A stretch of DNA of 64,000 nt from Cafeteria roenbergensis (taxonomy: Eukaryota; Sar; Bigyra; Bicosoecida; Cafeteriaceae). The notes below the pieces were generated by a model, which saw only the letters and a list, made by a program, of their open reading frames with translations, searched no databases and was not told the DNA's origin. A program made the position numbers and the translations under genes. Position 1 is the stretch's first letter, and the number at the start of each line of letters is the position of its first letter. Below are positions 1 to 64,000 of this stretch, piece by piece. Where the stretch lies: NCBI GenBank assembly GCA_008330645.1, contig VLTN01000036.1:248001-312000 (forward strand), in the 5' to 3' direction.

Positions 1-332
1 TCACGGAGCCGTCGCTGCTCGTGCGCGGCAGCGAGCACGTCTTTGCCCTGGGAGACTGCGCCGAGACGGGGGCGTCCAAGACTGCGTACATGGTGGGTGC
101 GCAGGCGCCAGTCGTTGCCGGCAACGTCAAGGCCCTCGCCGATGGCAAGCCCGCGACAGGCCTCAAAGCCTTCACCTGCGGCACCCCAGCTATGGTCGTG
201 CCCGTGGGGGCAGCGTATGGCCGCGGAGTCCTTCCATTTTGCGGAGGCATTCAGATCGGAAACTCCATGGTTTCGTCTGCCAAGGGCAAGACACTCTTCC
301 TGGACAAGACGCGAGCCGACCTGGGCTACTGA
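1..332 (+). CDS. AIFM2/FSP1-like NAD(P)H oxidoreductase, C-terminal end (partial)
   Basis: Open from the left edge (first full codon at base 3) to TGA at 330-332, leaving about 109 residues. The piece starts in the FAD-binding motif 'VFALGDCAE', followed by 'KTAYMVGAQAPVVAGNV', the usual C-terminal part of two-dinucleotide-binding-domain flavoproteins, where the Asp contacts FAD and the next helix closes the FAD site. Spacing and wording fit the AIFM2/FSP1 (AMID) and NDH-2-like family, which passes electrons from NAD(P)H to quinones. It ends in an interface-like tail without the extra membrane helix of some NDH-2 enzymes. N-myristoylation and substrate cannot be judged because the N-terminus lies outside the window. 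The next gene downstream is convergent. Family assignment is fairly secure; the exact subfamily is inferred. Confidence 0.75.
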   Translation, partial: TEPSLLVRGSEHVFALGDCAETGASKTAYMVGAQAPVVAGNVKALADGKPATGLKAFTCGTPAMVVPVGAAYGRGVLPFCGGIQIGNSMVSSAKGKTLFLDKTRADLGY

Positions 333-1061
333 GGCCGTGCTTTGTGCTTCTTGTGCTTGGCGCGTGGTCGGCGTCTTGGTGCATCTGATTGTGTGCGGTT
401 GGATCGTTGGGCCCTGGCGCCATCACGCCATGGCCTGCTGAACGAAGCTTGCAGCTCCAGACTGGGCCACGTTGTGCTTTTGCTTGCTTCTTCGCCATGG
501 TGCGGTGCCATTCGCACGAGTCTCAGAACAACACTGCGCTAGGGAGGAGCCATAAAAACAAAGCCACTGCACAGCGTGCTATTCAAGTCTCACACTTTGC
601 TGGTTGAGAGCGTCATCTGGGGCACGGCAAGATTGTGAAAGCTTATCTGAGGCCGAAAATTCGTGGCGTATCGGCACGGCTTCGCCAGCAGCGAGCAAAG
701 CCCCACCAAAAGACTCGGGGTGTGCAAAACATGTTCGCAATTGCCGGTGCGACGATTGCAAAGCGCAGACAGTTGTGCTGTGAGGAATGCTTGATCCATT
801 TGGCCCCACTGCCAGAGGGAGAGCCATTCGCTCGAAAGGCTGGCTGCCTTGGCGTTGCGCGCGCTTCGCACTGGGCTCAATCTGCAACGCGGCCAGCATC
901 CTCACCAACAGCGTCGAAACGCACACAATCAAATCCTGCTCCAGACATATTCAAACTGCCTTTGCGCGCGTCTCTCCCTGTTGCGCCTCCACGCAAAACG
1001 CGGCAAGCACCCAGGCCCAGCGGGCCCACCAGCGCCCTGCCATTTGCGCACCAACACTCTC
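333..1061. other. Convergent intergenic region, no gene seen
   Basis: These 729 bases separate the stop of the oxidoreductase from the stop of the phosphatase on the other strand. Open frames here have no recognisable domain and are explained by high GC. I see no tRNA, terminator or repeat. It presumably carries both 3' UTRs. It is somewhat less GC-rich than the coding DNA around it. Confidence 0.5.
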
Positions 1062-3113
1062 TCAGCCCAGGTCAAGGGCGAGCGAAGCCCCGCCAGGGCC
1101 CGCCACGAGCCTTGGCCTTGACTTCCCTGCCGGCGAGGAGTCCATGCTGTCCGGCGTGTCGGCGCGGAAGCTTGGTCGCGCGCCCATTGCCTCGTCCAAG
1201 CTCTGCCCCGCAGAGGACGACGTGGACGGCCGAGGAGGGCGCGAGGCGCTGTCCTCCTCGTCGGCAGAGCTTGACGGAAGCCTTGACCCGCGCTGCCGCT
1301 TCGAGGCAGGCGATGCCTCGAGCGTGATGCCCAAGCGATCGGCCACTCGCCTGGCCATGCGGTCAGCGGCGGCGTCGCTGTACCGAAGGTTGTGCGGCAG
1401 CGACGCCGATGACGGCCGTTGGACCGACATCCGACGCGACTTGGACCCGGAACCGGAACCTGACCCGAATGCACCTGCCTCCTGCGGGCCGGGCCCGGCT
1501 TCTGATGCAGACAGCTCTGCCGCACTGGCCACCTCTTCCCGGCCCAAAGCATCTCCCCGCGGCTCTGCCGCACGCGGGGCCGGGCCCGCCTGCGCAAAAC
1601 CCGCCACTCCGGCGTCCCCGCCGTAGCCACCCGCACCCTCCACACCGAGGCTCTGCCTCTTGGCTCTGCCGGAAGCGACGCCAGTGGCTGTCACGTCACC
1701 CATGGCTCCAGCGGTTTCACCCGCCCCGCCGGCGGAAGTCTCCGCGAACCCGCTGAGTCGTGGCATCAGGGGTCGCGGCCGGATTGCCATGCCAGCGCCG
1801 GATCCGGCTCCGGTCAGGGCGCGGCTGTCGCCACTGGTTGCGGCTGACGACGCCTCCGTCGCCTCTGCCCAGCGCAGGAGCGACGCCCAGAAGCCGTAGT
1901 TCGGAAGAACTTGAGGCCGAGCGCTGCGAACCCGCGAAACCGCGTCCTCGAAGAGGAGTCCCTGCCGCAGCATCCACGCCACCACCACGGCGGGGCTTCG
2001 GCTCACACCGGCCCGGCAGTGTACCAGGGCGGTTTCACCGCGCTGCTTGCACCTGTCAATGGCGTCGCACGCAACGCGGAACACTTGCAGCATTGCGCCC
2101 CGCGCGTCGTCGCAGTCTCGGAGGTCGAAGCAGAGGTGGTGCGTAACCGACGGGCACTCGGCGATCGCGCGACGCAGCAGCGTCATATCCGAGTCAAAAG
2201 CCGGCCCTGAGGCAGTCTTGGCGCCATCAGCGACTCGCTGGCCACTCCCGGCACCGCTGCTGCCGCGTGCCAAGCTCTCGCCAGCACCGCCACCTGCAGC
2301 TGCTGCGGCCGCCGCGACCTCTCCCGGGGCCGTCTGGTCGTCGAGGATGGAAACCACGAGAGAGACGCGGTTTCGCTCCAGCCAGCCGACGTCCTGGGCG
2401 GCGCGTAGCGTTGAAATCAGGATGCGGAACCCCGAGCCAGCATGGGCGGCGTCTGCCGTGGGCGGGGGCGGGGCGGCGGCCGTGCCCGCAGAGGCGTCTG
2501 TGGGGCAGCCCTCCGCCGCGGCTGCTGCGGAGGCGTGGCCCTCGCCCTCGCCCCCGCTGCCGCCGCCGTCAGCGACGCCAGCGGCCTGGGACCCGACACC
2601 TGGGCCACAGCCAGCTGCATCCGCTGCGTCTGCTGTTGCTGCTGCTGCCCCGCCCGTGGCGGGCGCCTCCCAAACCACCGATGTTTCGGGCGACTCAAAC
2701 GGCGCATCGGCCCCCCGCAGGAGGAACAGCTCCCTATGCAGGCCAACGACGGACGCGGGTGGCTGCCACACGTGCAGGGTCAGCCCCGCCTCATCCTCTC
2801 CCTCGCCAAACGGGTGGGCCGGGTCCACTGCGCCCGCTAGCGATAGCACAGGCCGCGCGCTGCTCGCCACCGTGCCTCGCCCACCCGCTGCCGTTGCCCG
2901 AGCTCGCGGCGCAGTGGCGGGCGACGGCGAGTCAAGCTCGATACCGTCCGCTGAATCGTCCTCCGAAAGCACGTCGGGGACGCCTCTCGCTGGGGGTGCA
3001 GCACCGCGGCGCGGGCTGTGGGCGCGAGCGTTTCTGGAACCCAATGCGGTGCCAGCTCCGAAGCCAGCGGCGCCGGTCTCGCCGCCGGGAAGAGGCGTGC
3101 GTTTAGACGACAT
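1062..3113 (-). CDS. Dual-specificity protein phosphatase with long disordered flanks
   Basis: A single-exon frame of 683 residues. The catalytic domain lies about at residues 225-415: 'FRILISTLRAAQDVGWLERN' opens it, the acidic stretch 'CFDLRDCDDA' supplies the candidate general acid, and the P-loop HCRAGVSRS has nucleophile Cys366 and phosphate-binding Arg372 (H365 to S373). It ends with the usual 'RPQVLPNYGFWASLLRWAE' helix. This is the DSPc/MKP-like fold, which removes phosphate from Tyr and Ser/Thr of protein substrates. A 40-residue Ala/Gly insertion splits the domain before the acid loop. The N-terminal 220 and C-terminal 270 residues are Ser/Gly/Ala-rich with no docking domain I recognise, so the substrate is unknown. 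The start is the first Met of the frame. The LYRM2-like gene lies 295 bases upstream on the same strand. Confidence 0.85.
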   Translation of the reverse strand: MSSKRTPLPGGETGAAGFGAGTALGSRNARAHSPRRGAAPPARGVPDVLSEDDSADGIELDSPSPATAPRARATAAGGRGTVASSARPVLSLAGAVDPAHPFGEGEDEAGLTLHVWQPPASVVGLHRELFLLRGADAPFESPETSVVWEAPATGGAAAATADAADAAGCGPGVGSQAAGVADGGGSGGEGEGHASAAAAAEGCPTDASAGTAAAPPPPTADAAHAGSGFRILISTLRAAQDVGWLERNRVSLVVSILDDQTAPGEVAAAAAAAGGGAGESLARGSSGAGSGQRVADGAKTASGPAFDSDMTLLRRAIAECPSVTHHLCFDLRDCDDARGAMLQVFRVACDAIDRCKQRGETALVHCRAGVSRSPAVVVAWMLRQGLLFEDAVSRVRSARPQVLPNYGFWASLLRWAEATEASSAATSGDSRALTGAGSGAGMAIRPRPLMPRLSGFAETSAGGAGETAGAMGDVTATGVASGRAKRQSLGVEGAGGYGGDAGVAGFAQAGPAPRAAEPRGDALGREEVASAAELSASEAGPGPQEAGAFGSGSGSGSKSRRMSVQRPSSASLPHNLRYSDAAADRMARRVADRLGITLEASPASKRQRGSRLPSSSADEEDSASRPPRPSTSSSAGQSLDEAMGARPSFRADTPDSMDSSPAGKSRPRLVAGPGGASLALDLG

Positions 3114-3408
3114 GGTGCGCGGTTGCCAGAGCGCGCGCCTGGTCCCGGGCGCCGCACGCTGAGTGGGAGCAGCCGGCCGGGGCGGGCGTTTGCGCTGGCT
3201 GTTCCGACGGCTCTGCAGGCTGCGCGTGCGATTCGTCTGTGGGCGAGGGAATGTTGGAAGGCGGCTTGGGCTCCGCTATTCGGGGCCGAAACGAGGCGGC
3301 CGGCGAGGCTCGCTCGCGGAAGCAACACATACACGCACGCTTAGCGGAAGCGACACACGAACACAGAGGGGGCAGGCTGGCAGCCCAAGGCGGGCGTGCG
3401 CGGCTTCG

Positions 3409-3846
3409 TCAGCGGTCGAGGCTCGTGCGTGGCACACGGGCGCCCGACACAGGCCTGCGGCCGTCTGAGGCTGCCCATGGCCACCCTGCCTCTTCCGCCC
3501 GCGCCGAGCTCGCCCAGGGCGACTCGTCCTCGTCAGCCGCCGCCGCTTGCGACGGGGCTGCGGAATGTGTGCCTCCCGTTCCGTCCGGAACCACGACCAC
3601 GGCCGACAGCAGGTCTCGGAGCTGGTCGAGCTGCCTCGCGCCCTCCACCATCAGCGTGCGGACCTGGCCCGGGTCCGTCTCGTTCTTGTGTCGCCTGTAC
3701 TCTGCCTTGATGTGGCTCCGCGTGTGGCTTCGCTGAGGCTCCTCGAGGCCTGCCGCGGCGCGCAGAAACTCGCGGTACTGCGCGAGCACCTTGGCTTTCT
3801 GCATGAACTGCCGCAGCGAAGGCAGCTGCGCCGGGAGCTTGGGCAT
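3409..3846 (-). CDS. LYRM2: LYRM2-like mitochondrial LYR-motif protein
   Basis: 145 residues, one exon. Residues 7-75 match the Complex1_LYR family in the LYRM2 version: 'LPSLRQFMQKAKVLAQYREFLRAA', then 'RSHTRSHIKAEYRRHKNETDPGQVRTLMVEGARQL', with the arginine/phenylalanine core of the three-helix LYR bundle. The signature tripeptide is QYR rather than LYR. LYR proteins bind acyl carrier protein in the mitochondrial matrix and help Fe-S or respiratory-complex assembly; LYRM2 is linked to complex I. The last 60 residues are an Ala/Ser-rich tail absent from the roughly 88-residue animal protein and may be disordered. It is followed downstream, on the same strand, by the phosphatase gene. The family call is strong; the subfamily is inferred from the N-terminal wording. 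Confidence 0.8.
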   Translation of the reverse strand: MPKLPAQLPSLRQFMQKAKVLAQYREFLRAAAGLEEPQRSHTRSHIKAEYRRHKNETDPGQVRTLMVEGARQLDQLRDLLSAVVVVPDGTGGTHSAAPSQAAAADEDESPWASSARAEEAGWPWAASDGRRPVSGARVPRTSLDR

Positions 3847-4204
3847 GTCTCGAAGGGGCGCTCAGGCCCAGGGGCGCAGCTTGGCTGTGTTTGGCTGGCA
3901 GAGTGGCGAGACGGAGCGGCCAGCTCTGTCGCTCGTGGCACGGTTCGCGAGTGGGCATGGCGAGCGCTCCCGCCGAAGCGATTGCCGCTCGAAGACGGGC
4001 GGCTTTCTAGCCGGACCCCAGGGGCAACTGCAACACAGCCACGTGACGACTTCGCGCGGCAGACCGAGGCGCGCGCAAACTGCGCTGCTCGGCACAAGCC
4101 ATGCCCGTCAAGCGCCCATCAGCTGGGGCACGCACGTCCCTCAAACCACCATGCGGCACCCGGCCCGTCTCGCCCATCCGCTGCGCGCACCGCGTGGCTC
4201 CAAG
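3847..4204. other. Intergenic gap between LYRM2 and the PP2C gene
   Basis: 358 bases between the LYRM2 start and the stop codon of the upstream, same-strand PP2C gene. It should hold the LYRM2 promoter and the PP2C 3' UTR. I see no TATA box, RNA gene or repeat. Confidence 0.4.
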
Positions 4205-7200
4205 CTAGGGGTCCGGCGCCGGCTTTGGGCCCAGCACCGTGTCAATCGTCCGCTGTCCCTTTCCCGGCACAGGCGCCAGCAGCGACCTTCTGCTTCCTGG
4301 GAGGAACACCACGACCGCAGTGACGTCGTCGTGGATGTCGCGGCGCGAGCCCGGGGCTCTGGACAGCATCGCCATCGGGTCGTACTTGGATCGCAGGGCC
4401 ATCGAGCGAAGCGCCCCCCACACGACGCGCTCGGCGGCGGAGCTGCCTGGTGGGTTCGGCGGCAGCGCCGCTGTCCCCACGGCCTCGCGGGTCCATCGCA
4501 CGCCTCCCCAGTGCATCGGAGCGCCGTCATGCAGCAGCGTTCGCGCCCGCTCGCGAAGCGGCGCCGCCGTGCCGGTCACCAACGACCCCGGAGCGGCGTC
4601 GAGGCCGCCAGCACCCGCAGCAGGATCGCCATCGCGGGCCCGCTTCGCTGCTCTGCCGCTCAAGCCTCCAGACGACCCAGCCCCTCCGCTCCTTCCCACG
4701 CCACCGTTGGCAGAGCCACAATCAGCAGAGCCACTTTCATCGAGCTCTGCACGGATCCTCCAATCCTGCCACTGCTGCATGGTGCGGGCTGCTTCGGCCG
4801 CGGTTGGCCAGACCCTGGCACCGACCGCCGAGGCCGCCGGAGCCGCCGCAGACAGCTTGCCAGCGCCTCTGCCGCGCCTCCTGGCCGTGGTGTAGCGGTT
4901 TCGCGCCGCGCAGAGCTCCCGCATCTGCTTGCAGGACTCAGGCATAACGCACTTCCGACCCGGGTCGCTGCCCCACGCCAAGCTTCGGGCGTCTATCGCC
5001 GTCGGGTCGCTCGCGGCGGACGAACCATCCCCACCAAGACCAGAGGAATCGAAGCCGGCCCCGGCAGAGCCAGAGCGCGATCGGCGGCCCGATCCACTTC
5101 CGCCTCCAGCTCTGCTGAGCGACCGCGACGCCGGCAGAGCCGACCGCTGGGCCCGGCCTCCCGCCGCTGCCCCCAGCAACGGGTCCGCCATGGCCCGGCG
5201 GCGACGGCGAGTCGCGGCGCGATCGTCCTTGGCGCTGTCTCGGGGCGAGGCAGCGGCGCTGGGGGGGTACCCTGTCCCTGCTGCTGCCGAGTCAGCTGAC
5301 GAGCGGGCCCGCTTAGCCGGCGGCTCCAGGGCGATGTCGGACCAAGCCGCAAGCTCTTCAGGGTGGACCACGACTCCGGCTTCCGCGAGCGCGACTGACG
5401 CCCAGTCAGCTGACGATGCCTGCCCTGCGGCCAGACGCTCCGCCGCCGCCGCAAGAGCCAAGGCTGCCGCCGCCTCCACCGGGTCGATCGCAGGCAGCGC
5501 GGCGCCTCTGAGCGGGGCGGCGACTGGGCCCGCCCCCAGCACGGCCTGGATGACGTCAGCATTGGGGCAGGCCTCCCAGACGCCGTCAGACCCCAGCACG
5601 AGGAACAGGTCCCACGCCCGCAGCCGGCGCTGCCACACCTCTGGGTCGGCTCGCACATAGGGAGCGTACCTTCGGTGGGGCTCCATGGACAGTTCTGGTC
5701 GCTTCAGGAAGGCGTCCCCGAGGGTACGCGTGATAAGCAGCGTGCCTCCGACGCGGAGTGGTCGGCGCCGGTACTGCTCTGGAACCGACGAAACCGCAAC
5801 GGTTTCGCCGCTTGCGGTGACGATGGCGCCGGCATCGCGCCACGCCGAGTCGCTCCGCGACAGAGCTTTAGCTGAGAGCGCGGCACACTTCCCGGAAGGC
5901 GTGGATGACGCGGCCCCTCCTGCTGGCGTGGACGGGGCGCGGCTGCTCGCAGAGCGTCCTGCTAAGCGGGAAGGGCCCCGCGATGTGCGGGTGCCGCTAC
6001 CGCCCGCCTCGTCCTCCTGCTCCTCCTCGTCGTCGCCGTCGTCGCCGTCGTCGTCCCCGCCTCCCGACGCCACGGACGGGTCGGTCAGCCCGAGCGGGTG
6101 TGGCCCTCCAGAAACCGTCGGCGGAACGATTTCCCGAGGAAGCACGCGCACTGGGGCCCCCCGGATGCTGTCCCGAATGGGCAGCGGGTCGGTCGTGGTC
6201 GCTTCAACAAAGAGTCGCTCCGCGGCGTTCCGCACGCAGTGGTCCGTTGAAAGCGGCAGGGCGACCAGGTGCCGCGGACGAACGATGGTCAGGAGCGGTC
6301 CAGCAGCGGCAGAGCCGCTGGAGGCCGCGGAGCTAGCGTTGCTCGTGGCCCGGGCAGGCCAGCCCGGCGCATGCAAGGCAGAGGCGCCGGGCCGCGACTG
6401 GCCAAGCCCGAGCGGGGACGGGGGCGCGGCGGGGCCCTTGGGGGTGCCTGGCCATGCCACCGAGGAGGCTCTGCTGGGCGGATTCGAGGAGGCTCTGCCG
6501 GGGTGGGCGGCGGGAGTGTGCCAGCGGACGACGCTGGAGGGGGGCAGCGGGTGGCAGGGCGGGAGGGGCGTGCCGTCGACGTCGAACGCCAGTTGGTGGG
6601 GCTCTGCAGGACTGCCGTGACGGTGACGTCGGCGAGGGGTGCGGTGGGCGGACGCTGGTGTGCGCGGGGAGGCGCTCGACGATGCGGCAGGCTGGGGTGC
6701 TGACGCCGGGGCCGCTTCCGGCGGCGAGGCCCCTGCAACTGCCGGGGAGGGCTTGGACGGGCCACGGGCACCAGCGGAGGGCGGTATGGCCGCGTCGGGT
6801 GCCGGCGCCTTGGTTGCTGACGAGCTGGAAGGGATCTTGACGCGATGGGGGGAGGGCCTCGGAGCCGACGCGTCCGTTGCGGTGGGCAGACCGCGCTCTC
6901 CCGCCGTGGCCAGAACGCACCTGCAATCGCCAGTGTTGGCCACGGTGAGCGTCCCGTCCTTCACCACCGCCACAATGGCGCACGCCCCCGCCAGCACGTT
7001 GGAGGCTTGCTGCGCTGCGCGGGACGGGGGGCGACCGCCGGGGACGCGTGGCCGCGACAGCCTGTTCAGCCACGCCTCGTCCACCTCGCGAAACACATCG
7101 GAGAGTACCTCGTCGCGGATCGTGCTGGGAGCGGTAAACCTGTCCAGGCGCTGCGGGGGCGGCGGGCCGGTGACGGGCGGGGCACACGGAACGGGAGGCA

Positions 7201-8366
7201 CGACGAGGTGTTGCGATGGCCACAGCGGTCGGACGGATACGGCAAGAGGGACACGCTGACCAGCTCAGCAGGCACGAGCAGTGGGCTGCGGCCTGCCAAA
7301 TCGTCGCGGCGCACGCATCACGGCCCCAAGACTGGCTTGCTTGCTCGCAGCAAGCAGCGGAATGAATCCGTGCGGCGGGAAGCGACGCCACGGACAGGCA
7401 ATTGGCTGGCGCGCGAAGCGCGATGCCGGTGCGCGCGGAACTCACGCGGACGATGCGCTTGGGAATTTCGCGTGTGAAAAACTCCGCTGCCGCCACGCCC
7501 CCGTGGCCGTCGAGCACGCCGAACACGGCTGCCCCGCTGGGCTCGTGCAAAACAGCAAAGTGATGGTCCTCGCAAGGCTTGTTGGAGGGGTAGAACGCCG
7601 CGCTAAAGGTTGGCGGCTCCGTTGGCTCTGCCACGCTCCCGCTGTCCCGAATGGCCGCACGCACGGACCGGCCAGCGCTTCGAGAAGGGCTCGCAAGCCG
7701 GCGGGCAGGCCCGAGGGACGATGCCATCGCGGCCTCGCGGCTGGAGGCTGCAGCAGCCGCTGCGGGGGCTGCAGGCGTGGTCGTCGGTGTGCCGCCACCG
7801 GAGGACAGCGTCGCCTGGCGGACGGGCGTCGCGTCCACAGCGCGTTGGTGTGAAGCAGCAGCCGTCGCAGGGACGGCGGCGGCGGCAGCGGCAGCGGCGG
7901 CGGCCAGCGGGATGCTGGTGTGCCCTGTGGTCGCCGCGGCTCCAGCTCTAGCCGCCACAAGCCCGGCCGCCGCTCCTGCCGTGGCGGGGCGCGCGGAAGC
8001 GTCGCCGCTGCCCGGCAGAGCCGGTGAAGTGGCGGCCGCTGACGACGCCGAGCTGGAGGTCGCCCTCCGCACAGCGCTGGCACCACGTCGAAGAGTGCTG
8101 GGACGGGCCGCGGTTTCGGCCCGATACTGGCCTCCTGGCGTAGGCGCTGTGACGCCGCGCAGGGCGTCGCCACCCCCTCGTGCTCCGGCCGCCGCCGAAG
8201 CCGAGGGGCGTGGGCCAGGGTGCCCAGCCCCGCCCCTCGAGGCTGCGAGCGGCGTCGCATTCGAGGCAGCCAGTGGCGGACCTGACAGCAGGCCCGCTGC
8301 TGGCAGGGCGGAGGCCGTCGAACCCGCTGGCGTTGCGCTTGAAGCCGCTGCCGGTGGCCGCGCCGC

Positions 8367-8403
<37 letters not shown>

Positions 8404-9752
8404 ATTGACGGTTCCGCTCTTGAAGCGACCGGCAGCGCCGGCGGTTTCACTGCGTTGCGCTGAGCCTGCGCAGGGCTGGCGAGCGGCTCTGCCTGCGGCG
8501 GTGCCCTGGGCAGAGCCGAAGCAGTGCGCGAGCGGAGCGACGGCTCTGCCGCCTCTACGAGCGCCGCTGCCAGCTGGCCCCGGGACAAGCGGGCGCCCGT
8601 GGCACCTGCCGCGTATCCGATCGAGAATGCGCCGCTGACGCGGCGCCTGTCGCCGTCAGTGTCCGCGGTTCCGCTGCTCGTCCGGCTCTGCCTGCGGTTT
8701 CGCCTGTGTGTCGTGGAAGAGGGGCCCTCGGCCGCTGCGGCCTGCCGAGGTACCGGAGCCAGCTTCGTATCGCCTCGTGACGCACCGGCCCCGCCAGCTG
8801 CGGCATCGTGCCCGCCCTCCCCGCCCCACGCTCGAAGCGGGCTGTCTGGAGCTTCCGCCCCTGTCTCTGCTGGCGGCCCTACCGACCGTGCCGGGCTGTC
8901 CCAGTCCTGGGGCGGCTCTGCTGGGTGCCGTGCCCACGCGACGCACGGCGGAAGGCCTTTCTCGGTGGAGACCTCGAACTCAGCAGAGCCACTTCGTGAA
9001 GTCGTCACGAATCCCGCCAGTTCGACAGTCGCCTCGCCGCTCGCCTTTCGCAGGCCTGGCAGAGCCACTTCGGAAACCAACGAAGCCTGGGAGGCCGTGG
9101 GAGCCACCACCACAAGGCGCAACTCGGAAGCGGCGGCTGCACCAGCTGCCACCAGCGCGGAGCAGCTGCCAGGCGACGCCGCCTCAGCAGCCGCTGAGTC
9201 GCGCGAGCCTGTGGGCAAGCTGCCTAGCGCCCGTTCCGCAGAGCTCGGCGCCAGCGCTGACCGAGCGGCCCTCAGGAACGCCGCAGCGGCGGGCGTTGCC
9301 TCGTCTGCGCACGCGGACCCCCCTGTCGATGCACCTGCACTTGCAGCAGAGGATGGCAGCGACGGCTCGTGCCCGTTCGCCGCATCCGCTGCCGCTGCTG
9401 ACGCGGCGGCAGCGTGTCGCGTCCTCGGCCGCGGAGGATCAGCAATGGCCCCCCCATCCACCGACGCGCCGCCGCCTTTGGCGTTGGCGCTCTCGCTGCC
9501 TGCGCGGCGTGCGCACATTGCAACCGGCAGCGCGAGGGCAACTGCCTGATCCCGCCCGGGGGCGCTGCTTGCCGCTCGCTCAAGGGCCCGGGCAACTGCC
9601 CACGCCGCGCGGTCTGCATCTGATGCTAGAAATATCCACGTTCGACACGTCGTCGCGTTTCCGGCGCTGGGCAGCGGGGCGGTGTGCAAGCCGAGCTTCG
9701 CGAGCACGCGCGAGGCGGCACCGCCTGCCGAAGAGCCCGCAGGGAGGGACAT
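4205..9752 (-). CDS. PP2C-type phosphatase, pyruvate dehydrogenase phosphatase-like, with giant insertions
   Basis: Two exons: 9752-7446 and 7150-4205, joined in phase 0 (donor GTGAGT, acceptor CCGCAG), giving about 1,750 residues. The catalytic domain is split by the 295-base intron. Exon 1 ends with 'GVLDGHGG' (metal-binding Asp748) and 'REIPKRIVR'. Exon 2 continues 'RLDRFTAPSTIRDEVLSDVFREVDEAWL', then 'VANTGDCRCVLA', 'LSTDHCVRN', 'ITRTLGDAFLKRPEL', 'YVRADPEVWQRRL', 'LVLGSDGVWEA' and 'RDIHDDVTAVVVFLP'. The order and the 'AEPEV-like' and long pre-DDV insertion resemble mitochondrial pyruvate dehydrogenase phosphatase rather than plant ABI-type PP2C. Roughly 700 N-terminal residues and inserts between motifs are Ala/Ser/Pro low complexity. 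Mn/Mg-dependent Ser/Thr dephosphorylation is expected; mitochondrial location is plausible but no clear presequence is seen. The start is the first Met and is uncertain. Confidence 0.8.
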
Positions 9753-15974: not shown

Positions 15975-16017
<43 letters not shown>

Positions 16018-18475: not shown

Positions 18476-18507
<32 letters not shown>

Positions 18508-54965: not shown

Positions 54966-55612
54966 CTGCAGCGGGGACTTGACGGGCACTGCGACAATCC
55001 CGCCTGTGGCAAGTCGGGCGGCGTCCCCTCTCGACGAGCAGCTGCAAGACACCGGCCGCGCAGCGGATGCCACTTCCGTCGAGGCAGCTGGCCGTCGTGG
55101 CCTGCTCGTGTTGCGCGCCGCATTCGGGCGCGTCTGCCTCATTCGAGCAACGACGTGCATCTCATATCTCGTCTTCCAGGCGCAGCCAGGCGATCGACGA
55201 GAGCTGCCCCTGCAGCCGAGCCGATGGCATTGCCCGCACCACTGCCTCGCGGCGCCTCTCGGCGCGAGTGGGTATGCGCACTTGTGGTCATTCGCGTGCG
55301 TTGTGCCATCTCTCGGGCGCGTTCTGTGTGCGGGGGAGGGGTCGGCGCCCAGGCCTGCAGCTGAAACGCTCTCCGGCTCCACGACGCATCTTGCAGTGCC
55401 CGTGCACACACTCGCACGACGGCCTGTCCAAACAATCGGCACGCATTCGATGTGCACGGATGGCTGGGGCGGGGGGCAAACACGGCGGCCGCCACGCGCG
55501 GAGGCGACAACCGGCAAGTCAGCGCCGATGATCCGTCGCGCACCGGCTGCCGAGCGAGCGACGCGACAGACGGCCCGCTCGTCCTGCCCGTCTTCAAAAA
55601 GGCGCTGTCGAC
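54966..55612. other. Convergent intergenic region
   Basis: 647 bases between the GTPase stop and the TRAPPC2 stop. Open frames on both strands lack family wording. I see no RNA gene or repeat in it. Confidence 0.4.
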
Positions 55613-56141
55613 CTACGAAAGCACCAGGCTCAGCCGCGCCCTGGCCAGTCGCTGGATGGCAGCGCGGAGGCACTTGGACCACAGCGCGCTTCCGGGGCGC
55701 TGCAGCGGGTTCATCCTGGCCTTGATCAGCAGCTCGTGGACCTCGTCGCAGAAGGTGCGGGTTTGGTCCTCCCTCCGCTCCGTGAGCACCACCGTGATGG
55801 TCGAGTCGAGCGTCCGGTGCGCAAAAGCGTGGAACTCGCTGAGCTTGTCCACGAGGCCGAGCCACGACCGGGACGTCGTGCTCGCAGCGTCGTCCGCCGC
55901 GTCCAGTGACGCATGCGCCAGCATTTCGGCAGCCCGGGCGGCCCTCTGCGTCGTGGTCGGGCTTGGCCGGCAAGCAGCAAGGTGGGCAAGGCGCTGCGGG
56001 CGGCGAGGGCAACCGGGACGTTCAGTCGCCCACTGCTCGAGAGCGGCCCCTTCCTGCCGCACCCCGGCGCGACTGGCTCACGGCATCCTCAATGTGCATG
56101 GTCAGCAGCGGGCCCGACTCGCCCGTGATGACAACCGCCAT
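55613..56141 (-). CDS. TRAPPC2: TRAPPC2 (sedlin)-like TRAPP complex subunit
   Basis: Two exons, 56141-56082 and 55945-55613, phase 0 (donor GTGAGC, acceptor CGCAG), give 130 residues; human sedlin has 140. Exon 1 is the first beta hairpin ('MAVVITGESGPLLTMHIEDA', compare 'FYFVIVGHHDNPVFEMEF'). Exon 2 continues 'MLAHASLDAADDAA' (compare 'FIAHAALDLVDE'), 'LGLVDKLSEFHAFAHRTLDSTITVVLTERREDQTRTFCDEVHELLIKARMNPLQRPGS', in which 'VDKF', 'FxxDVxxLyIKxxMNPF' and the final helix are the longin-fold landmarks of sedlin. TRAPPC2 is an adaptor subunit of the TRAPP complexes, which act as Rab GEFs and tethers in ER-Golgi traffic. The FYVE-like gene ends 179 bases upstream on the same strand. Strong family match. 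Confidence 0.88.
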
Positions 56142-56320
56142 GGCGCGCTGTGGCCGCGCTGCAAGAACGGCCGCAGCAGTCGAATATTGTGGCGCCAGAA
56201 AACATGTTGGCCGGCAGCTGCGTCGCGCGCTGCATTTGAGCTGTGCGACGCTCAGTTGCCGCGCTGCGCAGCCCAGCTGCCTGCCACACTCATGACCACA
56301 CGCACCCATTCGGGATCGCG

Positions 56321-57630
56321 TCACTGCGGCGCCCCGTGCATCGCCTCGATGCAGTCGCTGCAGTGGCAGCGAAAGCCGCACGGCACCCACGGCGGGTGCT
56401 TCACAACACCACACTTGCGGCAGAACGTGAGCCCACAGCGCTCACAGCGGTGCCTCACTCTGAACTTGCGAACGCTCACAAGCCCTAGCTGCTTGCCGCA
56501 CACGTGGCACCTGTCCGGGTCGTTGAACACCTCGTTCTCAAACTCGTCTCGAGTGTCGGCAACAGCTCGGACAATGCGGTCGAGCTCCGGAACATCGCCG
56601 CCAGCCGCGCCGTGGTGCTGCGGCGACCCGTTTGGGGACGCGACAGCCGGCGGGCCGGCCGCTGCTCCCCGCTCGGCGCCGCCCCGGCTGGACGCGATCA
56701 CGACGTCAGCAGCGCCGCGCGGCCTCCTGCGCCGCGCGCCATCGGCCCATCCGGCGCCCCGTGCCCCAGCCGGGCTGTCCCCCACCCCCGGCGACCCGTC
56801 GCGCGGCCCTGCACCGCCGCCGTTCCCCGCGCGCCTCCGAGGCACCACCATGAGGAACGGGTCGCCCGTGCCGTCGTCAAGCGACATGACGTCGCCCTCC
56901 TGCGTCGCCCCTGCCAGCACAGGCCGCGTCGCCCGCATCGACTGCCACCCCACAGACACTGCATACACGCCCCCCATCACCAGGCTGGCGCCCAGCGTCA
57001 GCACCATCACAACCCGCTCCAGCCGCTCCCACCGCGACCCCCCGCCCTCCGAGCCCGCTTCCGCCTGGGTCTGCGCCCCCTGCCCGCGGCCTCCGTCCGC
57101 GCCGTCGCCGCCCCCAGCGCCCTGCCGCACTGCTGCAGGGGGCGCTGCCGCCTCTGCTCGCCGCGCCTCAGCCATGACCTCAAGCGCCGACTTGACAAGC
57201 ACGGCAGTCTGGTGCAGCATCAGCCGCAGCTCGTCGACGCTGCCGGGCGTAGCCCCGCCTGTCTGCAGGGCGACGCTGTCGGGGGAGCCTGGCCCAGCCC
57301 CTGCGCCGGCTGCCGCAGCGTCGCGGAGGCTCAAGGCAAACGACGCGCTGCTGTGAGCCGCGGCCGAGCCCGGGGCTTGAGCGAGCGAACACTGGCGGCC
57401 ACCCACTACGGCTGGGGCAATGTCCCGGCGACTCGGCCGATGCACCTCCCCTGCGCCCACCCCCTCCTCCTCCTCCTCCTCCTCCTCCTCCTCCAGCTCC
57501 AGCTCCTCCTCCTCCGCCGGTGCCTCAGGCGACCCTGGCGCGACGGCTGCAGCCAGCACCGCAGCATCGCCCCCCCCCGCGGGCGAAACGACCGGCCCTG
57601 CCCTGGGCGCCGCCTCAGAGAACTGTGGCC

Positions 57631-57682
<52 letters not shown>

Positions 57683-59626
57683 ATGCTCGTCGACGTCCTG
57701 TGGTGAGCGCAGCTGCACGAGGTGGGCCACGACCTCGGCCATCACTGACCTGTCTACCAGGCCCGAGCTGGCCATCGCCTCTCGGCTCTTGTGAGCGACC
57801 AGGGTGTTCCCGTCAAGGGTACGTTGCGCCGCCGCTGAGCTCTGCCAGCCGTTGGCTCCTTCAGGCGAGGCAGCCAGCGATGCGCCCGTTGCGTCGACGA
57901 CACCTTGGGATGCACTTGACGCCCCGTTGACACGGCCATGATGTTCGTTTGATTCGATGCCGCCCTGCCCTGCCGGTCGGGAGCCCCGGAGCTTGTCGAG
58001 CGCCTCGACCACGCCTTCGGCCTGCTGGCCGGGCGCCTCAGAGCCGCACGCCGATGCGCCGATGCGCTCACTGAGCCGGCCACAGCCAGGCATTGGGCCC
58101 CCTGGGCGGACCACTCCGCCGGGTACGGCTCCGCCCGCCACTGGCGCCAAGTCCTCGGCCTCCAGGCCGGCGTGGCTTCCCGCCCCTGCCACCGGGATGA
58201 CGCCTGCGGCAGCGACCAAAGTGGCTGGCGACCACCTAGACCCACCGCCGGGACCCCAGGCTTGCACCCGAAAGGCCCACACCCCCGCACAGAGGAGCTT
58301 CCCTGCGTCGGTCGCCTGCCCGCCGCCGCTGCCGGGGCCTGGCATGCTGCTGAAACGGCTGCTGCTGCCGCTGCCGCCGCCGCCGCCACTGTTGCTGTTG
58401 TTGCTGTTGTTGCTGTTGTTGCTGTTGTTGCTGTTGTTGCTGCTACCGCTGCTACCGCTGCTATCGCCGCTGCTGTCAGTGCCGCCACCGCGGCCCTGCG
58501 AGGCCTCCCACTGGGCTAGGCATAGCCCCTTCACTTCGTCAGGCAGAGCTTGGGCCTGTCGGAAGGACATGTCCTGAGTCACTGCGACCGCCGTGTAACC
58601 GCTCGGCAGGGCGGGAGCGATCGAATCGTCTCCCAACCCAGTCGCCAACGCCTCCTCCCAAGCCCGAGCACCGTCGGCGACGTCGGCAATCGACGATTGG
58701 ATGCCGGACCCCGCCGGTGAGGCGGCTCTGACCCTGCCGCCAGCGCCCCCGCCGCCGACGTCGCCACTGACGTGCCCGCTCCCGTCACCAGCACTTCCGC
58801 CACCAACCACCGCCCCGTCGCTCGCGGCCTCCGCTGCTCCGCCCGTGGGCGCGGGCATCAGAGACGGCACGGGGTCCAGCCCGGAGGCATGCCGGCGGGC
58901 CATGCGCCCGAGCGACTCCACGGCGTCGGCGGATCGCCTGTCCGCCCATGCAAGGAGCAGGAGGCGGCTGGCGACCAAGAACGAAGTGGGCCCCTCGCTG
59001 GCAGAGCCTGAGCGCTCGCCCCTCCAAGCCAGCAGCAGTCGGCTTGCAGTGGGGGACCCCCGGGGCGCAGCCCGGCCAGCGGCGGTTTCGGCTGCTACGG
59101 CTGCGTTAAGCACCGCCGAGGCCGCAGGGTCCGTTGCCGGTGAGAGCACGACGGGCGGTTGGGGGGCCCCTGGAGGCACAAGCCCAGCGAGCCCCCTCGC
59201 CAGCAGGGCCGCCACTGCGGCCGCTACAGCTGCTGTGTCGACTTCGCCAACGCTGGGGGCCGCGGCGACAGCTGCAAGGAGCGGTGAGACCGCCGGGCCG
59301 GCCTCGTCGGCAGTCCCCTGCGCTGCCGGCAGGATGGAAGCGCCTGACAGCCCGGCCGAGGCGGCAGCCGCGGCAGCGGGCACAGACCCAACCGAATGGC
59401 GCAGCCACCGCACGAGGGCGTCCGGAGGAAGGGCAGCGTCGAGCGCCTCGGCCAGCAGCGGCTCGTTCGCAGCAGCCGGGCCGGGCGCTGCACCAGCGTC
59501 CCAAGACGCAGGTGCGGCGGCCGAAGCGACCTCAAACGGCGCGCCGGCTGCACGTACTTCCGCGAACGCGACCCAGGCCAGCCCGGCCACCGTCAGGTGC
59601 AGCAGCGCCGCATACGACAGTGGCAT
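56321..59626 (-). CDS. Membrane-anchored protein with C-terminal FYVE-like zinc finger
   Basis: Single exon, 1,101 residues. It begins with a signal-peptide-like helix ('YAALLHLTVAGLAWVAFAEV'). A long Ala/Ser/Gly region follows, with a possible fibronectin-III-like piece ('LCAGVWAFRVQAWGPGGGSRWSPATLV'), a poly-Asn/Ser run (58388-58446), poly-Gln (57637-57682) and poly-Glu (near 57470-57513). A transmembrane helix lies at about residue 875 ('VVMVLTLGASLVMGGVYAV'). From about 1037 a zinc finger reads 'RCHVCGKQLGLVSVRKFRVRHRCERCGLTFCRKCG', then 'CGFRCHCSDCIEAM': eight metal-ligand cysteines with the R-x-R-H-R-C-x-x-C-G core of FYVE domains, but without the N-terminal WxxD. Topology suggests a lumenal N-terminus and a cytosolic finger. 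FYVE domains bind phosphatidylinositol 3-phosphate on endosomes; binding is uncertain here. Confidence 0.75.
57637..57682 (-). repeat. CTG/CAG microsatellite encoding poly-Gln
   Basis: About 15 uninterrupted CTG units on the plus strand (CAG on the coding strand) in the FYVE-like gene. The purity suggests recent slippage. Confidence 0.85.
58388..58446 (-). repeat. TTGCTGTTG nonamer repeat encoding Asn/Ser
   Basis: About five to six copies of a 9-base unit, read on the coding strand as Asn-Asn-Ser or Asn-Ser-Asn repeats. It is lower in GC than the rest of the gene. Confidence 0.8.
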
Positions 59627-60023
59627 TCCGCCGCTTGGCGCCCCGAAAGCCTCCCTCCCGTCCGCCCGGCCTCTCGCGTCCCGAACAAGCGCTCACAGCG
59701 CCCCTCCTGCAGAACAGGGCTCAGAAGCTGTCCCCCGCTTGGTCGCGGAGCGAGGGGACGAATGTGACCATCGCTGCTCGCGTCCGCCCGCGGAGACTCG
59801 ACAGCTGGCAGAGCGGTCCGCATCGCAGCCGGGCTCCCTTGCCGCTCCGCTGGCGCACTGGTTCCCCGAGCCGGCCCTGCGGCTCGCTCAGCAAGCGCGG
59901 GCTACCTCAGGCTCGTGGCTTGGGCGGTTCCTGCTGGGCGGCGCGTCGCTGTGAGACAAACAGCTGCCGTGCCCTGGGCTGCGCGCACGCCAAGCTCCGG
60001 TCTGCGCCTCCGCGACGGCCAGC
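59627..60023. promoter_or_regulatory. Divergent promoter region, FYVE-like and Orai-like genes
   Basis: 397 bases between starts, the longest of the head-to-head gaps. No TATA box or other specific element was recognised. Confidence 0.45.
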
Positions 60024-61013
60024 ATGGAGCTCGTGTTCCAGACTTCCGAGGCGCGCCGCCGGCTCAAGGAGCGCCAGCAGGACCTGGCGTACCGCAAGAT
60101 CGAGCGCATTTGGCGGCGTGTCGACGACATGCGGCTGTCCGTGGAGAAGCAGTCGCGAGCGCTCGCAGCCGTGGCCAACCTTGCCGCCCTCGTGGGCGGG
60201 CTGGAGCTGGTGGTGCTCGTCGAGGCCCAATTCAACGTCCCCAACCCCAGCCAGCTGATGCTGGCGTGTTTTGCGCTGTTTTCGTCGCTGGCCGTGGGCG
60301 CAATGGTGATCGCGGCCGCCACTGCCCTCATGCTCATGGTGCGCATCAGCCACTTTGACGTGAAGCACGCGGTGATCCACCACCGAGCGCTGGACTTCGC
60401 GCGGTACTGGCAGCTGCGGTGCAAGGGCGAGTGGTGGCTCTGCCTCGCCTCCTTCGTGGTCGGGCTGCCGTGCCTGCTCGTCAGCCTGGCGCTGCTTGCG
60501 TGGCTGCGGTTCGAGGGCGGCGTGGCGGCGCCAGTCATCGTGAGCGTGGTGTCGGGGATGAGCCTGCTGCTGCTTGTGTGGGTGGCTGCGGGGTTCTGGG
60601 GCGCGACTGGCTTCTGGGGGTCAGAGGGGTACAGGTGCCCGCGCTGGTGCGGCGGGAGGGGCAACGGGAGGAGCAGGAGGGAGGTGGCGCATGCCGCCCC
60701 GGGCGGGGCTGCGGGCGCCCGTGGCTCCAGCAGACGCGCCTATGTTGCGGAGGAGGACGAGGCGGAGGACGGCTACGGCGAAGGCTCTGCCGCGGATGCG
60801 CGAGCCGTGGACGGCGCGTCTGCTCCAGAGGTTGCAGCTGGCACAGGGCAGGCGACTGCGACGCCGGCGAGCGGCGTGGACATGCAGCACGACGGCTATG
60901 ACGGCGATGACGTCGCGGTGTCAGGCTTCGAGCAGGATGGGGATGGCGACGACGACAAGCTCGACGACGCGCACTGGGCAGGGGCGATGCCGTCCGCGGG
61001 ACAGTTGGTGTGA
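60024..61013 (+). CDS. Orai-like calcium channel
   Basis: Single exon, 329 residues. Four hydrophobic segments follow an N-terminal basic helix ('ARRRLKERQQDLAYRKIERIWRRVDDM'). TM1 is 'ALAAVANLAALVGGLELVVLVEAQF', ending like Orai1 TM1 'SALLSGFAMVAMVEVQL', where the Glu of V-E-x-Q is the selectivity filter (Glu106 in human Orai1). TM2 is 'LMLACFALFSSLAVGAMVIAAATALMLMV', compare '[23 protein letters not shown]'. TM3 is 'GEWWLCLASFVVGLPCLLVSLALLAWLRF' and TM4 'VIVSVVSGMSLLLLVWVAAGFWG'. The loop 'HHRALDFARYWQLRCKGEWW' parallels Orai 'HERMHRHIELAWAFS'. Orai forms the plasma-membrane store-operated Ca2+ pore opened by STIM. The C-terminal 110 residues are an acidic tail with 'DGDDDKLDDA', lacking an evident STIM-binding coiled coil. 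The start is the first Met. Confidence 0.75.
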   Translation: MELVFQTSEARRRLKERQQDLAYRKIERIWRRVDDMRLSVEKQSRALAAVANLAALVGGLELVVLVEAQFNVPNPSQLMLACFALFSSLAVGAMVIAAATALMLMVRISHFDVKHAVIHHRALDFARYWQLRCKGEWWLCLASFVVGLPCLLVSLALLAWLRFEGGVAAPVIVSVVSGMSLLLLVWVAAGFWGATGFWGSEGYRCPRWCGGRGNGRSRREVAHAAPGGAAGARGSSRRAYVAEEDEAEDGYGEGSAADARAVDGASAPEVAAGTGQATATPASGVDMQHDGYDGDDVAVSGFEQDGDGDDDKLDDAHWAGAMPSAGQLV

Positions 61014-61653
61014 GTGCGAGAGCTAGCACCTTACAACCCGACACAGCAAACTCCCGCCTGAGCGCACGCCGGTTCGCGGTCAAATGCAGCTCGCGGCGAG
61101 AATTCACTCGAGTGAGGCAGGGGGTGAGACATTGCAGGAGGTTATGGAACAGCCAGTTGGCTGAAGCGTGCCCCCGATGGAAGCATCGGGAGACAGAATG
61201 TAAACGAATCAGTTGTGGATGAGCACGGCTGCGAAACCGCGTCTTCCTGCCGTTTCAACCATTGAGGCGGTCATGGCAACAAACATCATTTCCGTATATG
61301 GTAGTAATTATACTTGCATTGCAAGGTAGTAATTACACCTACTGAGAGTTACCTTTGAGAGAGGAGACTGGACGCTGCATGTATATGTGCTAGCAAGAAT
61401 AGTTTTCCAAACAAAGCAACTGTCTTTCATCAAGGTCAGCCGAATTTCAGCCAGGAGTTTGCGGCCTACGAGCTCCGCGCCGTGTTGGGCCAGTCCGCGC
61501 CGCACGCCGGCATCCCCCCCAGGCTTTCACTCCGTGCTGAGGCATGTGTGGCATTTTACGAGCGGATCTGGCACGTGTGGCGCGGCCAGGCGAGGCGACA
61601 AAGCGAATTCGGGACTCGCCCGCCACCCGCACACAAGCACACGCCCAGCGCGC
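61014..61653. other. Convergent intergenic region with an AT-rich island
   Basis: 640 bases between the Orai-like and CHCH-protein stops. From about 61195 to 61450 base composition falls sharply toward AT. Inside it GGTAGTAATTA is directly repeated about 30 bases apart (near 61299 and 61327). A CGAAACCGC motif sits at 61232-61240. No coding region or complete element was recognised. Confidence 0.55.
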
Positions 61654-62395: not shown

Positions 62396-63481
62396 TGCCG
62401 TCTGCCTCGTGAGCCGGGGGTGGCGGGTGGAGCTCAGCTCGCCAATAGCGACTGGTGTTGCCTCTGCCGCGTCGCAGAGCAAGTGTGGAGCCCAGCCGCC
62501 GCCCGTCCGCCCACTTCCAGAGGGCTGCCCAGGGGTGGCGTGCGCTGGCGTGGCCCTCGTCACTCGAGAGGCAAGGGTCCCGCCTGGGCAGCGCGCCTTG
62601 CGATTCGGCTGGAGTGGGGAACCCACTCAGCACGACCATCTCCGCTCACACCGGGGCAGCCGAAGCTCGCACGGCTTCCGCAGGGGCGCTTCCGCGCGAG
62701 CGTACCTGCTGCTATTTGAGCGCCACATAGCAGACTTGCGGAAGCCAGCTGCGTCGGGCGACAGCACAACCTCCAAGCTGGCTGGCGTGGGTTCGCATCC
62801 GCGCGACTCGCGGCACACACAGGTGCAATAGAAGGCGAGGAGCAGTGAAAACCACCATGTCCAGTCGCCATGAGCAATGGGTCCCCCAACCGTCAGCATG
62901 GATCCGTCCTCGCGACATTCGGTTGGAAGTGGAAATTCCTTGCAAAGAATCTTTGCTCTTCGAGCAGCCTCCTCGCTTAAGTGAAAACTCAGTACGCATG
63001 ACACAATCTGGGACTTCTCAAAGCAGTCCATTCTATAGCTGTGGCTTGTTCCGCGTACCGCGATCATAGCAACGAGCAGCTTTGGCTGCAAGCAATGACG
63101 GAGCTATAATGATACAGGTCCAGAGTCTCACCGCTGACGGCGCGTCGGCTCGCTGTCGTGGACTGAGGGAGTCCCGGCCCAAAACCACAGGTCCAGGCAG
63201 GAATTCCGAAGTGAGATGCGGGTGAGCCCGCGGCAGCCAGCACTCGCGAGAAGCTACTGCCAGTGCAGTCCTTGCCAAACCCGGCATTCGCAGAACATGT
63301 TTCATCACGAAGCAGCGCCACTTGCTCCGCGGCCGGCCGCTGCCGTGCGGCGGGGCGCTCGTGCCTGCACCGTGCATGGCACAACCCCCCTCTCTCGCCA
63401 CTTGCCACCCAGTGCGTGATCATGCGCGAACAAAACGTGCGCGGTGAGGTCCCGAGTCAGTCTTTGGGAACGAGAAGGCAA
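62396..63481. other. Intergenic region with reduced GC
   Basis: 1,086 bases between the CHCH-protein start and the stop of the TPR gene, both minus strand. From about 62830 to 63130 it is clearly poorer in GC than the rest. A 154-residue minus-strand frame at 62627-63091 contains one hydrophobic stretch but no recognisable family. A GGTTCGCATCC near 62788 resembles a tRNA B box, but no tRNA fold surrounds it. Confidence 0.45.
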
Positions 63482-64000
63482 TCACTCGAAGCGGCTTTCG
63501 CCCTGGTCAAACTCCCCGCTGTGGCCTCCCATCGAGGCCGCAACGCCAGAGCGCAGCGATGCCCCCTTGGCAGCGACACCCCCCGCAGCAGGCGCCCGGC
63601 GCCCCAGCGCCCGCTCCGCCGCCGCGGCGCCCTCCTTGGCCTCCTCGGCCACCTGCGCTCTGCCGGCGCTCTTCAGCGCCTCCGTGAACGCAGCCGCAGC
63701 CATGGCAGCCTTGCCTGCCTCCAGCAAGACCTCTCCCAGCCGCACGCGAGTCGCGGCAGCCGCGCCCTCAACGGCCACCCCCGCCCCCACAAGCCCCACC
63801 GTGGCGCGCCGCAGCACCGCCTCCGCCGCGCCAAGCTTCCCCAGCGACCGGAACTGCGCGCCCAGCCGCCGCAGCAGGGAGTTGTGCCGACCCCCAGACA
63901 GCCCGTTGGCCAGTGCGCGCTCCAGCGAAGCCGCCGCCTCCTCCGCACGAGGCGGCTCTGCCGACAGGCACACCGAGCAGAGCCATCCCCAGGCAGTGGG
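63482..64000 (-). CDS. C-terminal part of a TPR-like protein (partial)
   Basis: Open from the right edge to TGA at 63482-63484; 172 residues remain. The piece is a series of Ala-rich helix pairs: 'AEEAAASLERALANGLSGGRHNSLLRRLGAQFRSLGKLGAAEAVLRRA', then 'TRVRLGEVLLEAGKAAMAAAAFTEALKSAGR', whose A/G-L-A-F/Y pattern at helix-helix spacing is that of tetratricopeptide repeats. After a charged helix 'EEAKEGAAAAERALGRR' the end is a flexible tail 'GHSGEFDQGESRFE'. TPRs are protein-interaction scaffolds. Nothing is known of the N-terminus, so no function is proposed. A GGCTCTGCC motif lies at about 63953-63961 within the coding sequence. Confidence 0.6.
   Translation of the reverse strand, partial: PTAWGWLCSVCLSAEPPRAEEAAASLERALANGLSGGRHNSLLRRLGAQFRSLGKLGAAEAVLRRATVGLVGAGVAVEGAAAATRVRLGEVLLEAGKAAMAAAAFTEALKSAGRAQVAEEAKEGAAAAERALGRRAPAAGGVAAKGASLRSGVAASMGGHSGEFDQGESRFE

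Follow-up and report, generated by a model that had tools for sequence, protein, structure and literature searches.

A nine-letter DNA word in genome-wide excess in the flagellate Cafeteria roenbergensis, a candidate for an iterated word kept at the DNA level

Several described systems use short words that recur throughout a genome. The DNA uptake sequences of Neisseria and Pasteurellaceae are defined by the uptake of external DNA through the competence machinery, while Chi and KOPS of bacteria are read by a DNA machine and are oriented with replication. In the available text of PMC4390886, iterated genome words (HIP1, uptake sequences, Chi) are described from bacteria, and HIP1 is presented as one word in excess whose deviations are greatest at the first and last letters; it is linked there to methyltransferases, and a repair model is put forward in which the excess is possibly an incidental product. 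Here we describe a nine-letter word, GGCTCTGCC (hereafter word A), in Cafeteria roenbergensis, a flagellate that eats bacteria and is itself attacked by giant viruses and virophages. The window under study is a stretch of 64,000 nucleotides with 71% GC, namely positions 248001-312000 of contig VLTN01000036.1 (C36), in an assembly of 36,303,456 bases and 167 contigs. For strain BVI, now C. burkhardae, the accessible part of PMC6972860 gives 170 contigs with 36,327,047 bases, 70.1% GC, 8,483 predicted proteins, and UGA read as Trp in the mitochondrion.

An exact-match listing of the window contains 60 copies of word A, 36 as GGCTCTGCC and 24 as GGCAGAGCC (Table 1). Base composition predicts 1.9 copies, in agreement with the "about two" of an earlier note that a model had made from the letters of the window, and all 15 coordinates listed in that note indeed carry the word. 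Dinucleotide shuffles of the window gave a mean of 2.85 copies and at most 9 among 100 shuffles, and a third-order Markov model expects 3.8; a fifth-order model, which holds much of the word itself, expects 28.5. For a wider view we took a 10-kb locus at position 100,001 from each of the 20 contigs C1-C20 and added five further loci, among them the two flanks of the window, so that 25 loci (250 kb) and, together with the window, 314 kb were covered. Of the 1,260 words that can be written with its letters, word A ranks first both in the window (60 copies, median 2) and in the 314 kb (159, median 10), and ranks 2 and 3 are taken by its own one-base shifts. In the whole genome 10,998 copies are found in 36.3 Mb, with 5,445 on the forward and 5,553 on the reverse strand, while the word read backwards gives 994 (485 + 509). 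The earlier note would have given up its idea had the motif been confined to this locus; it occurs genome-wide at 303 per Mb. An assembly or sequencing artefact was considered as the source and is thought unlikely, since the one-off words of its core are not depleted.

Word A resembles HIP1 (GCGATCGC) and the alternate HIPs of cyanobacteria in being a short word with a large genome-wide excess, and in that its one-off variants fall mainly at the two end letters. Moreover its mean gap in the window is 1,058 bases, beside the once per 1,000 cited for HIP1 in the available text of PMC4390886. It differs from HIP1 in that it lies in a eukaryotic nuclear genome, has nine letters with only an imperfect palindrome (TCT/AGA centre), coexists with a second unrelated word, GCGGTTTCG (word B), and is three times less dense genome-wide than in the window. 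Since the palindrome is imperfect and the host a eukaryote, word A is distributed like a HIP but is not a HIP. The uptake sequences share with it that they are short, iterated, of DNA level and found in coding as well as noncoding DNA, and Chi and KOPS that they are short and iterated, although the orientation of neighbouring copies on contig C1 seems unlike theirs, as described below. The suggestion in the earlier note of a DNA word akin to HIP1 or to uptake sequences thus held for the DNA-level nature, the strand symmetry and the HIP1-like variation of the end letters, while its promoter placements are not supported: a home-made coding model assigns the copies at 12979, 39191 and 42337 to coding-like segments, and that at 10236, called intergenic, as the sole one among the 15 to a noncoding-like segment.

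The relation of the word to proteins was examined by a synonymous shuffle over the 314 kb, in which codons were shuffled 60 times while all protein residues were kept, and by a division of the same DNA into coding-like and noncoding-like segments with a home-made coding model. The 143 coding copies of word A stand against a shuffled mean of 17.2 and a maximum of 25, so that the excess did not vanish under a codon and peptide model, the other outcome that the earlier note had named as fatal. In the three phases of the sense strand 52, 5 and 26 copies were observed against 3.9, 1.8 and 3.7 in the shuffles, and in those of the antisense strand 21, 18 and 21 against 1.4, 2.7 and 3.7; with an excess in all six codon phases the motif is no single peptide, as had been supposed from its occurrence on both strands and in several frames. 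The shuffle is fair, since the reversed control words show no excess in it (reversed word A 6 vs 8.0, reversed word B 4 vs 5.4). Given the peptide (one-letter code), the codons of word A are over-used 14-fold for GSA, 17-fold for GRA, 7.8-fold for ALP, 5.3-fold for AEP, 5.5-fold for QS and 2.5-fold for LC (5 of 14). TCT is indeed an uncommon Ser codon: with Gly-Ser-Ala set aside, it accounts for 588 of the 7,476 Ser codons of long open frames. Word A is rarest in the phase where it encodes a cysteine, from which we infer that protein-level filtering acts on a DNA-level word. Outside genes the word is as dense as inside them in the 25 sampled loci, with 396 per Mb in coding-like (85 copies) and 395 per Mb in noncoding-like segments (14 copies), or 8.2 and 8.9 times the expectation; this equality outside the window is provisional, because it rests on a small noncoding set and on a home-made coding model. 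Altogether word A is in excess throughout the genome, symmetric between the strands, and independent of protein sequence and codon usage.

The shape of the word was analysed over the 314 kb with word A masked in the training of the background, and here its 159 copies stand against 9.3 expected. The consensus is Y-[G>A]-GCTCTGC-[C>T,A]-R. A change of the first letter from G to A is found 54 times against 6.0 expected, a last letter changed from C to A 42 times against 4.6 and from C to T 42 times against 6.4; pooled, these end-letter variants reach 138 against 17. In the window, the last-base variants of which the earlier note spoke do exist (T 16, A 12, G 5, where T plus A would be expected 4.4 times), though in smaller number than the exact copies. 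The core GCTCTGC is fairly sharp: its 21 one-off words total 290 against 214, and a few of them reach two- to three-fold with small counts. Just outside the word, C or T is preferred one base before and G or A one base after, and beyond this no shared sequence was seen around the copies. Such a position-specific graded tolerance is the form expected of a recognition site. The arms are palindromic about an asymmetric centre, GGC-TCT-GCC, so the palindrome is not perfect; among the GGCNNNGCC words the TCT/AGA centre stands out with an enrichment of 8.3-fold in the sample and of 15.9-fold in the window, the next-best centres reaching 4.3-fold and 3.7-fold with 3 copies each. Selection for a hairpin was rejected, as flank pairs 1-8 around 148 copies pair no more than in shuffles (pair 1: 57 vs 55.6).

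The origin of the copies was approached by comparison with solved protein structures, in stretches picked, not at random, for low Gly/Ala/Ser/Pro content or for known domains. Sixteen copies of word A lie in the matched stretches, four in ungapped aligned blocks, three at gaps and nine outside the aligned blocks (six of these nine in the TOR kinase). Ungapped alignment means that the copies there arose by substitution, and the comparison shows this origin at four places, three in TOR (Table 1) and one in a HECT ligase (locus L010), where PALP faces PRLP of TRIP12. Two further copies fall at gaps or gap edges in a ubiquitin-activating enzyme (L032), and the third gap-sited one is in an RRM loop; the gaps measure 2, 17 and 5 residues, and insertion at other places is possible. 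For a dense stretch in L022 with seven further copies, the comparison with solved proteins gave no match.

The window sits in a region about three times denser in word A than the average, with 938 per Mb against 303. In its flanks, L029 and L030, 8 and 10 copies were counted per 10 kb, so that the dense region extends over at least 84 kb. The 25 loci contain 99 copies in 250 kb, or 81 in 230 kb (352 per Mb) without the two flanks, and three of the 25 have none. In the first 839 kb of contig C1, 181 copies show a variance/mean of 3.6 per 20-kb bin against 0.94 for the reversed word, and words A and B correlate (Spearman 0.53, p 0.0003). As for orientation, neighbouring copies on C1 agree in 91 of 180 pairs with 91.0 expected (permutation p 0.50), a random arrangement apparently unlike that of Chi and KOPS. 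For the 8-letter form neighbours agree in 87 of 145 pairs in the samples and in 61 of 92 in the window, where gene sense may explain the tendency; KOPS-like orientation domains seem unlikely from C1, on which the tendency of the samples and the window was not seen. Two stretches of this contig, 340000-650000 and 790000-1050000, are poor in words A and B and in the control word alike, and perhaps differ in composition or repeat content. At C1:1395549-1395641, outside the mapped 839 kb, a tandem array with a 12-base period holds the reversed control word eight times and was excluded from the control list behind the C1 map. In one sampled locus (L020, 10 kb, contig C12), 8-mers are strongly repeated, the distinct fraction being 0.52 against 0.78-0.91 in the other loci, with little coding signal.

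With low-complexity DNA and the core of word A masked, the next enriched word in the 314 kb is word B (46 copies vs 4.2), followed by GATGACGTCA (16 vs 0.6), GCGTCTCTCA (13 vs 0.5) and then weaker ones. Genome-wide word B has 3,668 copies (1,818 + 1,850) against 908 for its reversal (475 + 433), and in the synonymous shuffle 45 against 4.6. With 19 copies in the window and 30 in the 250-kb sample, it is denser in the same region as word A. Another word, TGACGTCA (word C), the same 8-letter palindrome as the textbook CRE/bZIP site, has 17 copies in the 314 kb, all in coding-like segments, and is in excess within coding DNA. The word GGAAGGATC has 13 copies in the 314 kb, six of them in the window (23077, 23612, 23621, 45810, 45827, 50778), some next to word A, others arranged as inverted pairs, and TCACTTCG lies no more than about 60 bases from a word A core in 9 of its 11 copies, the best result among many words tested.

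The candidate explanation that we prefer, to which we give a probability of about 0.5, is that word A, iterated as DNA throughout the genome, is maintained by a reader specific for its sequence or by a repair bias. A sequence-specific DNA-reading factor would create and keep the copies. This factor might be a protein that binds the word, an enzyme that modifies it, or a complex of repair or recombination with a preference for the word in mismatch correction; proteins would merely tolerate the word, most readily in disordered stretches of Gly, Ser and Ala and least readily where it encodes cysteine. Word B would then be another such site, served by this machinery or by a parallel one. More tentatively, the nucleus may hold at least two HIP-like words, which arise by substitution and which a dedicated DNA reader maintains on either strand, within genes and outside them, and such a reading system might serve, for instance, in marking self DNA, in guiding mismatch repair or in setting recombination domains.

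A number of observations weigh against this explanation. We know of no reader of word A. No match to the C5 DNA methylase profile PF00145 was found in the genome, with 10 of 14 controls matched, all of them prokaryotes and with no eukaryotic control, and the MT-A70 profile PF05063 matched no genome, controls included, again with no eukaryotic control, so that such an enzyme may have escaped both searches. In the window the copies are clumped (coefficient of variation of the gaps 1.6) and lack the even spacing that a repair-tract model might call for. The density there is 1,108 per Mb in coding-like (58 copies) against 171 per Mb in noncoding-like segments (2 copies, 11.7 kb), and a cruder split of all 314 kb by long open frames gives 557 per Mb inside against 248 outside. 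Within the core, two one-off words exceed their expectation as well, GCCTCTGCC (54 vs 16), which makes up half of the one-off excess, and GGCTCTACC (9 vs 0.9). On C1, word A correlates with the control word as well (Spearman 0.37, p 0.02), and in the sparse stretch the control word is scarce too; because the control word tracks word A on this contig, part of the regional pattern may be due to base composition or repeats.

Among the other explanations, a functionless epiphenomenon of mutation or biased gene conversion, in which context-dependent lesion, repair or recombination yields more copies than it destroys, accounts well for the fact that outside the window word A is as dense in noncoding as in coding DNA, for the strand symmetry, the origin by substitution at four places, the regional clumping, and the second unrelated word enriched in the same regions; such a model is indeed proposed in the HIP1 paper (PMC4390886, in its available text). 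The specificity over nine letters with a nearly clean core is far sharper than that of known mutational contexts, and decayed copies are few, as the 20 core neighbours other than GCCTCTGCC total 236 against 198 expected beside about 150 excess copies of word A, so we regard this explanation as rather unlikely. It is less probable still that the copies are sites of an abundant transcription or chromatin factor under selection for local binding, of an ordinary type though unusual in their number and intragenic position. The graded, site-like degeneracy with its Y...R flank preference speaks for such sites, as does the excess in coding DNA of word C, the CRE/bZIP site; about 1.3 copies per predicted gene (10,998 copies and 8,483 proteins) and the lack of a noncoding preference, with 143 of 159 copies coding-like against about 85% of the bases, speak against them.

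A tiny mobile or templated 9-bp insertion is very improbable: a few copies do stand head to tail (49455/49464) and three of the 16 checked ones are at alignment gaps, but four lie in ungapped conserved blocks, the flanks are not conserved past about one base, and none of the three gaps has a size of 3 residues. As a general route, insertion or transposition was rejected on the ungapped alignments, the three gap-sited copies notwithstanding. To a by-product of Gly-Ser-Ala peptides and codon usage we give next to no credence. The Gly-Ser-Ala phase is the most frequent with 52 of 143 coding copies, and the surroundings of word A are somewhat richer in Gly/Ala/Ser/Pro than random coding DNA (0.51 vs 0.46; outside the window 0.49, p 0.024). 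This origin is nevertheless refuted by the synonymous shuffle, which leaves an excess in every phase including those of the antisense strand, and by the over-use of the codons given the peptide; for example, 18 of the 20 Gly-Ser-Ala tripeptides in the TOR open reading frame (ORF) are spelled GGCTCTGCN, and GSA is barely commoner than ASG (218 vs 180).

In the literature, none of the open-licence papers searched combines 'Cafeteria' and GGCTCTGCC, and among the matches listed for GGCTCTGCC in these papers none is about a word of this kind; the accessible parts of the Cafeteria papers PMC6972860, PMC8547959 and PMC10945749 contain no mention of one. In at least 120 stretches of viral contigs 36 further copies of word A stand against 16.1 expected, a rough comparison biased by the scan pattern. 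Looking for relatives among viral contigs gave no useful result.

As for the hosts of the copies, the TOR kinase of 4,820 aa is nearly double the 2,549 aa of the compared mTOR chains, being enlarged by Gly/Ala/Ser-rich inserts, one of which, of about 247 residues, lies between the FRB and kinase domains. For the ORF at 45222-51419 a search for a second allele or paralogue gave only itself and short matches. A tRNA-Ser (CGA) predicted inside it at 45949-46038 (-) is doubtful, as at the Rfam gathering threshold no tRNA is found in the window. Elsewhere in the assembly, the last 15 kb of contig C167 (43,160 bases) are AT-rich with a bacterial-type small-subunit rRNA, and their open frames read as atp1, atp9, nad1, nad3, nad11 and cob with UGA as Trp, by which features this contig is identified as the mitochondrial genome; on it, L035:656-5590 is an open frame of 1,644 aa with 29 UGA codons as Trp, possibly a much enlarged ribosomal protein gene. 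A search of the genome for light-harvesting proteins found none, the family searches having no positive control here.

Table 1. Copies of words A, B and C and the main host ORFs in the window (GSA, GRA, ALP and AEP give the encoded peptide)
Feature	Position	Strand	Context
Word A	1561..1569	+	
Word A	1649..1657	+	
Word A	1662..1670	+	
Word A	4709..4717	-	
Word A	5063..5071	-	
Word A	5133..5141	-	
Word A	6308..6316	-	
Word A	6491..6499	+	
Word A	7624..7632	+	
Word A	8014..8022	-	
Word A	8485..8493	+	
Word A	8509..8517	-	
Word A	8542..8550	+	
Word A	8684..8692	+	
Word A	9058..9066	-	
Word A	10236..10244	+	noncoding-like segment
Word A	12979..12987	+	
Word A	14387..14395	+	TOR ORF, GSA
Word A	14660..14668	+	TOR ORF, GSA
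Word A	15749..15757	+	TOR ORF, GSA
Word A	16019..16027	+	TOR ORF, GSA
Word A	16055..16063	+	TOR ORF, GSA
Word A	16589..16597	+	TOR ORF, GSA
Word A	16601..16609	-	TOR ORF, GRA
Word A	16918..16926	+	TOR ORF, ALP phase
Word A	17023..17031	+	TOR ORF, ALP phase
Word A	17087..17095	-	TOR ORF, GRA
Word A	17162..17170	+	TOR ORF, GSA
Word A	21297..21305	-	TOR ORF, ungapped vs mTOR (RQSP vs KDSS)
Word A	21977..21985	+	TOR ORF, GSA
Word A	22472..22480	-	TOR ORF, ungapped vs mTOR (GRA vs SLA)
Word A	23059..23067	-	TOR ORF, AEP phase
Word A	23093..23101	+	TOR ORF, GSA
Word A	24647..24655	+	TOR ORF, GSA
Word A	25829..25837	+	TOR FRB domain, ungapped vs mTOR (GSA vs GNV)
Word A	26426..26434	+	TOR ORF, GSA
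Word A	26633..26641	+	TOR ORF, GSA
Word A	30099..30107	+	noncoding-like segment
Word A	39191..39199	-	
Word A	41272..41280	+	
Word A	41387..41395	-	RRM loop, 5-residue gap vs FUS
Word A	42337..42345	-	
Word A	46267..46275	-	
Word A	46807..46815	+	word B copy directly after
Word A	47028..47036	+	
Word A	47072..47080	+	
Word A	48315..48323	-	
Word A	48792..48800	-	
Word A	48828..48836	-	
Word A pair	49455..49472	-	head to tail (49455-49463, 49464-49472)
Word A	50004..50012	+	
Word A	50352..50360	-	
Word A	50668..50676	+	
Word A	50787..50795	+	
Word A	51459..51467	-	
Word A	59000..59008	-	
Word A	60436..60444	+	
Word A	60783..60791	+	
Word A	63954..63962	+	
Word B GCGGTTTCG, 19 copies	1935..61240		0.85 in dinucleotide shuffles; starts 1935-, 2367+, 4895+, 5789-, 8110+, 8694+, 18408+, 18432+, 22636-, 24041+, 24190-, 27206+, 41001+, 46401-, 46816+, 47132+, 47925-, 59082+, 61232-
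Word C TGACGTCA, 6 copies	5551..48442		0.57 in dinucleotide shuffles; starts 5551, 17746, 20146, 21475, 39965, 48435
TOR kinase ORF	13592..28054	+	single open frame, 4,820 aa, hosts 20 word A copies
ORF	45222..51419	-	2,065 aa, Gly/Ala/Ser-rich, without Pfam match, hosts 13 word A copies

To sum up, word A is an iterated word of a eukaryotic nuclear genome, while words of this sort are mainly familiar from bacteria. Since four strains of a single species have been sequenced and reads are public, as given in the accessible part of PMC6972860, selection and biased repair can be directly tested against each other by the gains and losses of copies. Moreover, our results suggest that iterated words can shape protein sequence from the DNA level, as in the Gly-Ser-Ala, Ala-Leu-Pro and Ala-Glu-Pro peptides of this organism.

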